From an uncultured Muribaculaceae bacterium (lineage in GTDB: Bacteria; Bacteroidota; Bacteroidia; Bacteroidales; Muribaculaceae), in NCBI GenBank assembly GCA_947632485.1, contig CANRPJ010000015.1, positions 1 to 63,155 on the forward strand: a DNA stretch of 63,155 nt. Direction: 5' to 3'. The notes under the pieces were generated by a model. That model saw only the letters and a program-made list of their open reading frames with translations. It was not told where the DNA came from and ran no database searches. Below are positions 673 to 24,919 of this stretch, piece by piece; position 1 is the first letter of the stretch, and each line of letters opens with the position of its first letter. A program made the translations under genes and the position numbers.

Positions 673-737
673 CCTTGACATCAAAAGGGAGGTATAGTTC
701 AAAGTATTAGGTACTTGGGCTTCAAAATGTGTCAAGA
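673..737. repeat. 61-bp spaced inverted repeat, copy A
   Basis: TTGACA at 675-680 and its inverse TGTCAA at 730-735 enclose exactly 49 nt. Copies B (22516-22576) and C (22957-23017) have the same 49-nt spacing. The inner segment matches copy B at 29 of 49 positions by my count. The right arm runs directly into the terminator hairpin at 741-774. The reverse complement of that arm, AGGCCCCTTTACA followed by CTTGACA after two or three bases, is also the left arm of copy B. Confidence 0.7.
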
Positions 738-740
738 CTG

Positions 741-774
741 TAAAGGGGCCTGCGCGGTGACGCAGGCCCCTTTA
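741..774. terminator. Bidirectional intrinsic terminator
   Basis: A perfect 14-bp GC-rich stem (741-754 with 761-774) has a 6-nt loop, CGGTGA. It sits between two convergent genes and is flanked by A/T-rich sequence, so it could stop transcription from both sides. There is no long uninterrupted T-run on either side. Confidence 0.85.
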
Positions 775-22486: not shown

Positions 22487-22513
22487 TCGACGGCCGTACA
22501 GGCCCCTTTACAA

Positions 22514-22588
22514 CCTTGACAACAAAGTAGGCTTATTGTGCTAAGTATCAGCTATTAAGGTCTAAAATCGTGTCAAGGCTGTCAAGTG
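22514..22588. repeat. 61-bp spaced inverted repeat, copy B
   Basis: TTGACA at 22516-22521 and TGTCAA at 22571-22576 enclose 49 nt. Outside the right arm a second TGTCAA-like word follows with a 3-bp gap (GTCAAG at 22581-22586). The inner 49 nt match copy C at 32 positions and copy A at 29. The reverse complement of 22571-22601 matches the left arm of copy C (22932-22962) at 28 of 31 positions, so the two copies bracket the segment between them in inverted orientation. Confidence 0.75.
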
Positions 22589-22945
22589 TCCTATCTCCAG
22601 CTCCAGTATTGAATACGGTAGCTACGCAAAGTAGAGCGTTTTGACATTTCAAATATTATTTCTAATTTTGCCCTAAATTTCACACCTCAAACCTATATAA
22701 GGGCATGGGGCGCGGGAGTGTATCTGAATATATAGGGGTATTTTATATCTACATGACAATCTCTATATACCTTATAACAAGGGTTATGCCCATGGAATGG
22801 GCATCTGACGGTAACCCCGAGTGAAACTCGGGGACTATCGTAGAATAAGACTATAAACCCACGGCGTGGGTGTCTCATTTCTGGTGAAATTAAGTATCGA
22901 TATTGATTTTTCGGCTGCTTGCAATAGCGAGGCTGAGGATAGGGC
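22589..22945. other. Segment between repeat copies B and C
   Basis: This AT-rich, non-coding stretch of about 357 bp holds the three-hairpin array described separately (22786-22871) plus A/T runs at 22630-22680 and 22720-22780. It has no open frame worth reporting. Because its two ends are near-perfect inverted repeats it may be one non-autonomous mobile unit (inference). Confidence 0.5.
22786..22871. repeat. Array of three perfect hairpins (REP-like)
   Basis: Three consecutive palindromes: ATGCCCA/TGGGCAT with a 5-nt loop (22786-22804), CCCCGAG/CTCGGGG with a TGAAA loop (22815-22833), and ACCCAC/GTGGGT with a GGC loop (22857-22871). The spacers are 10 and 23 nt. Short GC-rich palindromes in a non-coding repeat cluster resemble REP units that are moved by REP-associated tyrosine transposases. 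No such transposase is in the window. Confidence 0.65.
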
Positions 22946-23030
22946 ACTTGACAGCCTTGACAACGAAAAGGGCTTTATTTGCTATGAATCAGCGTTTTAA
23001 TATCAAAATCGTGTCAAGGTGGTCAAGGCT
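22946..23030. repeat. 61-bp spaced inverted repeat, copy C, overlapping the comEC 3' end
   Basis: TTGACA at 22957-22962 (preceded by another TTGACA at 22948-22953) and TGTCAA at 23012-23017 (followed by GTCAAG at 23022-23027) enclose 49 nt. The right arm lies inside comEC and supplies its last codons and stop. Confidence 0.75.
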
Positions 23031-24919
23031 CCTTTCTCCGGCAGACACAGAGGACCCTCTGTCCGCAGGTCGTGCACTGGGATTCCGGCTCTGGTAGCTT
23101 CTGCCCTGATATCGTCGAGCAGAAAGGAAAAAACCGAAGGGTGAACCACGAGCAGTCTCGGCCTGACTCGCTCCAGAAGAGGCGTTATCGACCCTTTCCA
23201 ACCGGAAGCGAGTATCAGCACATCGCATTCCGTAGGTTTCAGGGGTAGTTCCGGCCTGTCAGCACCAAGGATTATCAGACCTCTGAGGCGAATTGAAGAG
23301 TGCACTTCCGGAGTAAGCTCAAACCTACTCTCTTCGCCATCATTAAGATGAGAAAGAACCATTCTTCCCGATTGATTCCGAATTAGGATTCCATTAGTCA
23401 TCGTTTCATCAAAGGTCGGGAGAGCAAGGCCGATTATTGCCAAGACCCCAAGCGAGGCGGAAAGAAGCCCCCAGATAATCTTGCGGCTTGAATGGATAAA
23501 CCAGGCGAGGCAGCCGAGAGCGGTCAGCCAAAGCGCTGGCACGAGCCAATGGGAAGCTATTTCTACAGGCGGCAAAAGCGCTGAGAGCCAGTTGCAAAGA
23601 TTCAAGGCTCCTTCGTGACCCCATTTTAGGATATATGCGAGCCATGCCGGATCAGCGCCCAGGCAGAGAGAAAGAAGATAGACTCCACCCGCTCCGATAT
23701 AGAACGGAAGAAACGGTAGCAGAATGAGATTGGCGGGTAGAAAGGTAAGCGGAAACGATCCGAACCACCATGCGCTCACCGCCCAGCTGCCGGCAGTAGC
23801 TATGATACAGGCGCCTACTGCAGATAGCAGCCTGCGTTTAAGTCCGCGGCCGTGCTCGAATATCAGGCCGAAGAGAATCAGTGAGGCCACGCAGCAGAAG
23901 CTAAGCTGAAATCCGGGTTCTGAAAGCGCCTTTGGGTCCGCCAGAAGAATCACGATGCAGGCTGCGCATAAGGCATTGAAGGCACTGTTTCTTTTCTCCA
24001 TAATGATGGCGAGAGAGAGCATCGTGGCCATTACGCAGGTCCTTACAGCCGGGGCCGAGAAGCCCGTAAGAAGCGCGTAGAGCCATAGTAGCACCATCAC
24101 TAAGGGGTATTTCCATTTCCAGGATCCAAACGCGTTGAAAGGCAAAAAAAGGAGGGTAAGTACAGCCGCAAGCATTCCCATGTGAAGTCCGCTGAGAGCG
24201 AGCACATGAGCCACTCCGCTGTCGGCAAATGCCTGCCTCTCCTCAGGCGCGAGCATTCTCCGGTCGCCTAGCAGGAGTGACTGAAGGAAGGCTGCTGTGG
24301 CTACGGGCAAAGAGCTTTCTTCCAGTTTGCGGGAAAGGAAATCTCTGGACGCATCTGATGGGAGCCTGTTCCCCTTGGAAATGAGAGCTATATCTCCCGC
24401 TGCGGCGGACTGCTGCCAGGCTGCGCCCTGCGAAGCGAGATAGCGCCGGCTTTTAGGAGTAAGGAGGGATTCGGCTGATTCGATATCCTTTAAGGCGTTT
24501 GGCCAGGCTATGCGGTCACCCTTCTCGAGGATTTCGTCAGGCTGCGAAAAGAGAATGGCTTTGGCACCAGATGAACCGTCGACTTCAGCGGTCAGAGTGG
24601 CTCCATAACGGGTTTCGCTTATCTTTTCAATGGTGCCTGTAAGAGTTTTAGCTGTAGGTATCTCCGGGTGTCCGGGTTGCAGAAGCGCGGCATCAAAAGC
24701 GCCTATTGCGCAGCATATCAGGGCAGCACTCCAGCGCCCCGCATTTATCCGGGAGAGTCTCAGCCGCTGCAAAGGTCGGGCGCGTAACCGCCAGAAGGCG
24801 AGTGCGAATCCGGCAACCGCAACCGGAACGGCCCACCAGACGCTTAATACGAACCCCTGCACCCCGATGCCGGCCGCAAGACCAAGCAGACAGGGGAGCA
24901 GGGGAGCGTGGATCTTCAC
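23003..24919 (-). CDS. comEC: ComEC/Rec2 family competence membrane protein
   Basis: Predicted inner-membrane channel for DNA uptake. The ComEC signature is present in full: LLLGDRRMLAPEERQAF followed by VAHVLALSGLHMGMLAAVLTL, then about eight further membrane helices. An N-terminal OB-like part (TGTIEKISETRYGATLTAEV) precedes it. After the last helix a soluble tail of about 130 residues corresponds to the metallo-beta-lactamase-like domain of ComEC, but I see no HxHxDH zinc motif, so that domain looks degenerate. The final residues (ALTTLTRF) come from repeat copy C, which has invaded or replaced the gene end. Lies 13 bp after aroE in a long leftward operon. Confidence 0.88.
   Translation of the reverse strand: MKIHAPLLPCLLGLAAGIGVQGFVLSVWWAVPVAVAGFALAFWRLRARPLQRLRLSRINAGRWSAALICCAIGAFDAALLQPGHPEIPTAKTLTGTIEKISETRYGATLTAEVDGSSGAKAILFSQPDEILEKGDRIAWPNALKDIESAESLLTPKSRRYLASQGAAWQQSAAAGDIALISKGNRLPSDASRDFLSRKLEESSLPVATAAFLQSLLLGDRRMLAPEERQAFADSGVAHVLALSGLHMGMLAAVLTLLFLPFNAFGSWKWKYPLVMVLLWLYALLTGFSAPAVRTCVMATMLSLAIIMEKRNSAFNALCAACIVILLADPKALSEPGFQLSFCCVASLILFGLIFEHGRGLKRRLLSAVGACIIATAGSWAVSAWWFGSFPLTFLPANLILLPFLPFYIGAGGVYLLSLCLGADPAWLAYILKWGHEGALNLCNWLSALLPPVEIASHWLVPALWLTALGCLAWFIHSSRKIIWGLLSASLGVLAIIGLALPTFDETMTNGILIRNQSGRMVLSHLNDGEESRFELTPEVHSSIRLRGLIILGADRPELPLKPTECDVLILASGWKGSITPLLERVRPRLLVVHPSVFSFLLDDIRAEATRAGIPVHDLRTEGPLCLPEKGALTTLTRF

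Follow-up and report, generated by a model that had tools for sequence, protein, structure and literature searches.

A dispersed 61-bp inverted-repeat element with a core of constant length in the genome of an uncultured Muribaculaceae bacterium

Copies of the element in the window

The window, the whole 63,155-nt stretch of DNA analyzed here, contains three copies (A, B, and C) of an inverted-repeat element, each consisting of TTGACA, a 49-nt core, and TGTCAA (61 bp in total). All three were present with exact hexamers at the coordinates given in an earlier note on this DNA. Copy A is neighbored by an ORF without a Pfam match and by an HU-CCDC81 gene. Copies B and C are bordered by a DUF4296 gene on one side and a ComEC-like gene on the other, and the segment between them is designated spacer U. 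The features are as follows:

675..735, + strand: copy A, TTGACA-N49-TGTCAA (profile R1, 47.1 bits)
736..757, + strand: outer arm of copy A, degenerate half-site GACTGTAAA plus GGGGCCT
22500..22515, - strand: second (left) outer arm of copy B, reverse complement, GGTTGTAAA-GGGGCCT
22516..22576, + strand: copy B, TTGACA-N49-TGTCAA (profile R1, 64.7 bits)
22577..22597, + strand: strong outer arm of copy B, GGCTGTCAA-GTGTCCT-ATCTC
22586..22940, no strand: spacer U between copies B and C, repeated elsewhere in the same genome, with three small hairpins
22941..22956, - strand: strong outer arm of copy C, reverse complement, GGCTGTCAA-GTGCCCT
22957..23017, + strand: copy C, TTGACA-N49-TGTCAA (profile R1, 63.0 bits)
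23018..23033, + strand: second outer arm of copy C, GGTGGTCAA-GGCTCCT
23003-24919, - strand: ComEC-like ORF, terminating within the core of copy C

The pattern TTGACA-N40..60-TGTCAA matched four times in the window against 0.03 matches expected (0 of 100 shuffles reached four), and all four matches lay inside the three copies and their outer half-sites. The cores of B and C were identical at 32 of 49 positions and those of A and B at 29 of 49, in agreement with the counts in the earlier note, and the value for A and C was 22/49. The proposal of up to four half-sites per copy held for B and C, but not for A, which has a single degenerate outer half-site. The ComEC-like ORF crosses the arm before it stops in copy C, and its last codons are supplied by the element. 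Next to copy A, positions 742-773 form a GC-rich inverted repeat (AAAGGGGCCTGCG...CGCAGGCCCCTTT), the 5' half of which is the arm of copy A.

Copy number and spacing in the genome

The genome comprises 2,596,019 bases in 48 contigs, the window being contig C15. A total of 72 known copies of TTGAC(A/G)-N49-(T/C)GTCAA were identified on 29 contigs, and the spacing was 49 in 72/72. The exact pattern TTGACA-N49-TGTCAA was found at 68 places, while the reversed-pattern control was found at 0. When all hexamers were scanned at spacings of 12-129 over 451 kb (the window, C1, and C2), TTGACA at spacing 49 ranked first. Within these 451 kb, spacing 49 occurred 15 times, 58 occurred 11 times, and 43 occurred four times, and any other spacing up to 400 was present at most once; 58 corresponds to the outer half-site and 43 to the inner TTGACATTGACA variant. 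In 644 kb chosen around copies, the counts were 68 for spacing 49, 61 for 58, 26 for 43, seven for 52, six for 67, and at most two for the rest. Spacings of 58, 43, 52, and 67 would be expected from nested half-sites of the same copies.

The arm sequence TGTCAAGGNNGTMAA was also used as a query, and it matched 93 times in the genome (91 in the 644 kb chosen around copies), each time within a complete copy (93/93). The remaining two of these arms, at C12:45064 and C46:559, belong to copies with TTGACG as the far hexamer, again at spacing 49. Since the arm-keyed search presupposes no spacing, the fixed value of 49 was not imposed by the query; the count of known copies refers to those with an exact arm or two exact hexamers outside the 644 kb. 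The check for further copies that had been suggested in the earlier note thus yielded many more in the same genome, with a spacing that never varied.

Structure of the element

A profile was made from 70 copies (68 exact and two with one mismatch; one chance match was dropped), each oriented by its better outer arm. The consensus was RCC-TTGACA-N49-TGTCAA-GGCTGTCAA-KNSNCCT-NTCC. A second GTCAA half-site follows 9 bp outward, either on one side or on both, and the second half-site GGCTGTCAA-KNSNCCT was found on one side in 70/70 profiled copies. The true unit exceeds 61 bp, the outer half-site being part of it. The strong arm differed from GGCTGTCAA by 0, 1, and 2 mismatches in 54, 14, and 2 of the 70 copies, respectively. 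On the second side, an arm with three or fewer mismatches was detected in 33/70 copies, and the two-humped distribution of mismatches there indicates that both one-arm and two-arm copies exist. In a common variant, an additional TTGACA is located directly inside the hexamer.

The sole kept feature of the core is the dyad TTA-N5-CT-N7-AG-N5-TAA, made up of TTA (18-20), CT (26-27), AG (35-36), and TAA (42-44). The profile counts at these points (n = 70) were 67 for T19, 59 for A20, 59 for C26, 65 for T27, 62 for A35, 60 for G36, 65 for T42, and 65 for A43. The central 7 bp vary between copies.

Constraint on length and ends

The mean best-orientation identity of the 70 cores was 0.53, and their minimum spanning tree contained 853 substitutions, corresponding to 17.4 per site. 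Among the known copies, the number of length changes was 0. In bacteria, roughly one small indel occurs per ten to twenty substitutions, and dozens of length changes would therefore be expected without selection. At the core rate, about 209 changes were expected at the 12 hexamer sites; two were seen in the 70 copies and four in the 72. All of these are TTGACG (4/144 hexamers), the other hexamers being exact. In close pairs (31 edges, 180 changes), the hexamers and the position pairs 19/43 and 20/42 were unchanged; 8 changes fell on the eight kept points and 172 on the other 41 core positions.

The earlier statement that the geometry is under constraint was thus strengthened, all 72 copies having spacing 49 although the 70 cores require at least 853 substitutions. 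Neutral decay of a dead MITE was considered and rejected on the same substitution and length data and on the 4/144 changed hexamers. Every copy is intact although the cores differ at about half of their positions, which points to selection at each locus. The absence of decayed copies argues for a function per locus; an element that is purely mobile would have no need of one.

Pairing and folding

Between the two core halves of 52 non-redundant copies, 538 of 1248 cells were Watson-Crick pairs, versus a shuffle mean of 577 (sd 13). In the RNAalifold analysis, pairs were restricted to the invariant ends and the covariation term was 0; invariant hexamer pairs are uninformative on pairing, either way. 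In the arms of the 33 two-arm copies, paired cells amounted to 242/297, 122/231, and 106/297, the shuffle means being 241.9, 120.9, and 108.2. These covariation tests found compensatory changes neither in the core nor in the arms. As RNA, copies B and C fold well (z -3.8 to -5.3) because their arms are inverted repeats, and the folding of copy A does not exceed that of shuffled sequences (z -1.5 and 0.07). No Rfam family matched the window at the gathering cut-off.

An RNA or single-stranded DNA hairpin as the constrained feature was rejected as the principal explanation, given the lack of covariation in the core and arms, although two-arm copies fold; the RNA structure considered in the earlier note was accordingly not borne out, despite the good folds of B and C. 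Since pairing is not kept, the dyad is best read as a set of protein contacts on double-stranded DNA, and a double-stranded, protein-bound site fits the constrained feature better than a hairpin.

Position relative to genes

The copies are intergenic and favor gene 3' ends. In the profiled set, 66/70 copies share no more than 10 nt with any ORF of 150 aa or longer, while 91% of the tiled sequence falls within ORFs of 100 aa or longer. On a simple ORF map, convergent gaps hold 32/70 copies versus 28/117 gaps of at least 90 bp. Among neighboring ORF records of at least 150 aa, 73/108 face the copy with the 3' end. The earlier statement that all copies lie 3' of genes was correct within the window but not genome-wide, as 10/70 copies are flanked by divergent ORFs on the same map. 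For genes facing a copy within 130 nt, the median distance from stop codon to hexamer was 42 nt on the strong-arm side (31 genes), 42.5 nt on second-arm sides (14 genes), and 25 nt on armless sides (11 genes; Mann-Whitney p 0.03).

Outer-membrane barrels of the OMP_b-brl_3 family adjoin copies in 8/90 scanned proteins (from the 108 neighbor records, minus repeats, non-whole frames, and genes crossing stretch borders) versus at most 1/100 background genes (drawn from 287; the family was not among the 25 shown there). This neighborhood was set aside as evidence because it partly reflects gene duplication. Two paralogous two-gene loci, C25:34137-39314 and C4:31224-36090 (L092 and L102), have direct-oriented copies on both sides and contain a gene of 544-555 aa (no Pfam match in the one scanned) and an OMP_b-brl_3 barrel gene.

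Flanking blocks and neighboring copies

As judged from sequence comparison, cores and flanking blocks have separate histories, with a switch near the hexamer. The copies C35:4194 and C10:70 are identical over 69 bases to the left of the element (45 of flank and 24 of arm), at which point contig C10 ends. The first 8 bases of the element are also identical, and the core match is then 22/49, which equals the median of all pairs. Contigs C23 and C9 share 567 bp at 93% identity up to the hexamer, and in C25, C4, and C7 a common stretch of 377-746 bp comprises core and flank and stops at the far hexamer. About six independent flank families account for the switch points, the position of which is blurred by up to one arm length since the arms are alike in all copies. 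In the histogram of shared stretches, 18/40 entries do not stop at the element but span it completely (whole-locus duplicates).

Spacer U recurs in C35, in C5/C10 (two overlapping contig ends, joined by inference), and partly in C1, at 81-90% identity. The cores at the same end of spacer U match at 19-27 of 49 positions between three loci. The two cores around it match directly at 32/49 in C15 and 43/49 in C35, and at 24/49 in C5/C10. Recombination through the core centre, with half-cores moving together with flanks, was not supported because the U copies share arms and not half-cores; comparison of half-cores among them gave one weak shared case (0.67). Within spacer U, positions 22788-22870 hold three small hairpins in a row (gcccatggaatgggc, ccccgagtgaaactcgggg, and cccacggcgtggg). 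About ten more partial copies of this three-hairpin stretch are present in the same genome, and it looks like a separate REP-type family.

Ten comparisons of duplicates included a core, and the core was more diverged than the flank in six and less diverged in four. In the C35/C11 duplicate, the cores differ at 13/49 and 4/49 positions, the arms at 8/89, and the flank at 2/283; in the C6 pair, the core differs at 2/49 and the flank at 32/182. A hypermutable core, which the C35/C11 duplicate had suggested, was rejected because the core was the less diverged part in 4/10 cases, such as C6. Separate histories of core and flank would explain both.

The copies cluster in pairs and triplets. Among 27 pairs of copies lying no more than 4 kb apart, the cores are related in 11, without exception as direct repeats that enclose DNA segments (30-47 of 49 matches direct versus 19-31 inverted). 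The direct matches of 49 were 32 for B and C (inverted 19), 43, 43, and 46 in C35, 45 in C11, 43 in C2, 44 in C18, 47 in C6, 39 in C19, 30 in C1, and 32 in C7; with a median of 22 and a 95% value of 35 for all pairs, the values of 30 and 32 are elevated without being extreme. The other 16/27 near pairs match at 17-29 of 49 in either orientation, without marked similarity. The earlier idea that the repeats are the ends of a small mobile unit is consistent with the switching of flank blocks near the hexamers, but no transposase or parent element was found.

Occurrence in other genomes

Among the species searched, the family was seen in a single one. Scans of 791 other genomes of the order gave scattered, chance-like matches only and no member of the family. 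In 60 relatives, TTGACA-N49-TGTCAA gave 1-4 matches in each of 22 genomes, scattered and coding-like in appearance. The pattern CCTTGACA-N49-TGTCAAGG occurs at 60 places in the own genome and as a single match in 1/392 others of the order and 4/396 others of the family (overlapping sets). When the profile was applied to the 60 relatives, with up to 73 candidates scored per genome, one partial weak match was obtained (G045, E 0.007). In genomes of the same genus, no copy was found in 91 by exact pattern or in 36 of those by profile; exact patterns would miss a homologous family with other end words. The check in relatives proposed in the earlier note thus yielded no copies of the family.

A cognate family with other hexamers was looked for in three congeners (400 kb each) as over-represented, fixed-spacing inverted hexamers; this candidate was rejected, as the scan gave, apart from a tandem array, only other short palindromes and AT-rich pairs attributable to chance. 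One of the congeners (G004, L187-L206) has a short palindrome of its own, AGTATGTT-N23-AACATACT, the inner part of which is present in 7 copies in 400 kb. The same congener contains tandem 47-nt repeats with 30-nt unique inserts (L206:202-592), which look like a CRISPR array.

By IleS, the named relatives comprised bins of Muribaculaceae and of other Bacteroidales, with 74-76% for the majority of the closest, in line with the family named in the earlier note. The profile found nothing in the ileS region of the 44 loci searched of 80. Congeners are too distant (29-37% ComEC identity within the genus) for a comparison of orthologous empty sites. One copy (151 bases) had no match in phage and plasmid collections, and one arm pattern had none in viral contigs and named genomes; records near the own genome may be absent from these collections. 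No description of the 61-bp element was found in the literature passages available.

Candidate proteins

The genome contains five IS200-like Y1_Tnp genes (L128, L129, L130, L155, and L156), each surrounded by hairpin or repeat arrays that differ in sequence. Three of them are preceded by a copy at a distance of about 300-400 bp, two of these three appearing to be one duplication. Around the other two, the stretches read contained no copy, and these genes have their own hairpin repeats. Two Y1 genes encode proteins of 147 and 156 aa with the motifs YVKNQVEHH/YIKNQEQHH and resemble subclass 1.2 as described in passages of PMC6006769. In addition, nine Phage_integrase matches were obtained, eight of which exceeded the cut-off; the one closest to a copy lay 2.3 kb away. 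No integrase gene among these adjoins a copy, and neither a binding protein nor a recombinase was identified for the element. We therefore name a class of mechanism and not a protein. Among the three explanations offered in the earlier note, a protein-bound palindromic element is the best supported, by inference.

Discussion

The element constitutes a real and strongly constrained DNA element family. It is not filed as a REPIN, MITE, attC site, or RNA because the tested defining features of these fail, and it may work like a protein-bound, REPIN-like dispersed element. In our preferred reading, to which we assign a probability of about 40%, it is the docking site of an oligomeric, probably recombinase- or transposase-type protein that acts in trans and joins neighboring DNA blocks. 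The block junctions and direct repeats suggest that this oligomeric protein is probably recombinase-like. Its subunits would contact the hexamers, the outer half-sites, and the inner dyad points with fixed geometry; substitutions between contacts would be tolerated, and insertions or deletions would not. Copies would seed the joining or copying of flanking blocks, and the result would be related copies that enclose DNA segments in direct orientation. The divergence of cores and flanks without a single direction and the unrelated cores of C5/C10 count against this joining model, as do the 18/40 shared stretches that span the element, the 16/27 near pairs without marked similarity, and the absence of decayed copies.

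Tyrosine recombinases with core and arm-type sites include those of lambda and CTnDOT, and integrons use attC sites. The dyad core with its outer GTCAA repeats and the direct repeats around DNA segments would fit tyrosine-recombinase attachment sites, but no recombinase is linked to the element and its central 7 bp differ among copies. It is unlikely, in our estimate, that the copies form a dispersed integron-like system in which about 72 sites of fixed 61-bp geometry serve as sockets for a putative oligomeric recombinase. That gene blocks, spacer units, and repeat arrays were plugged into such sockets in direct orientation, with cores exchanged or diversified independently of the flanks, is to be doubted to the same degree. 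The element resembles attC in its position behind genes; however, attC-type folding is not kept, as no covariation was found, and the copies are dispersed over 29 contigs and not arranged in a cassette array.

The main rival to a recombinase-like role is a site of the host chromosome, with copies that would be fixed, immobile operators bound by a protein that acts in the nucleoid, in replication, or as a 3'-end insulator and would have been carried along by gene duplications. The repeated chromosome-organizing sites matS, parS, and KOPS likewise occur as dozens of intact motif copies over the chromosome, and the intactness of all known copies with cores that differ by about half, the preference for convergent gaps, and the 3' ends facing the copies agree with such a role. 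The element is far longer than those sites (61 to about 100 bp) and was seen in one species among those searched. We consider a host site somewhat unlikely: that no copy was found in the congeners searched is unlike a housekeeping site, and identical flank beside an unrelated core and clustering in pairs and triplets also speak against immobile operators. A MITE of a lost or missed DDE transposon, with TGTCAAGG...CCTTGACA as the terminal repeats of small non-autonomous units, appears very improbable. ERIC, Correia, and RU are bacterial MITEs. BrickBuilt of P. gingivalis is a named example in the literature passages available. The present element has in common with MITEs that it is short, non-coding, and dispersed in many copies between genes, with inverted TG...CA ends and subterminal direct repeats. 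Neither a parent transposon, a longer element with these ends, nor lone ends were found, however, all 93 arms lying in 61-bp copies, and a MITE would have no reason to hold the core length exactly while half of the core sequence changes; the lack of matches in the phage, plasmid, and viral searches described above points the same way.

The hairpin explanations are weakened by the absence of compensatory changes. An RNA hairpin or bidirectional terminator in 3' untranslated regions would account for the location after stop codons, at a median of 42 nt from the strong-arm-side hexamer, for the folding of the two-arm copies B and C, and for the run of copy A into the GC-rich inverted repeat at 742-773. 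It is nonetheless hardly credible, since copy A folds like shuffled sequence, the loop would not need exactly 49 nt, 10/70 copies lie between divergent ORFs, and Rfam gave no family in the window. A REPIN-like population, in which a non-autonomous hairpin is copied via single-stranded DNA by the Y1 (IS200-like/RAYT) transposases of the genome, is quite improbable. The inverted conserved ends, the variable spacer of constrained length, and the many intergenic copies fit the layout published in the available passages of PMC3116915, Y1 genes are present, three of the five with a copy upstream, and B and C fold well. Yet the same passages describe compensatory changes in REPINs as common and 18% of copies as singlets, whereas the present arms yielded 0 singlets (93/93 in complete copies). 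In the 70-copy profile (positions -69 to +131), no conserved columns corresponded to the GTAG/GTGG tag by which REPs are defined in passages of PMC6006769, and the association with Y1 genes is limited to 3/5, of which two are an apparent single duplication, the remaining two Y1 genes having hairpins of their own and no copy.

With the docking-site reading preferred, the significance of the family would lie in its signature. Dispersed bacterial palindromes such as REPs and REPINs have been described as hairpins, and the present family shows another signature, in which length and end contacts are fixed, the core is nearly free, pairing is not kept, and lone arms were not found. The set of copies is a natural experiment that would reveal the footprint of a putative multi-subunit DNA-binding complex, and this putative footprint coincides with joins between blocks of the genome.
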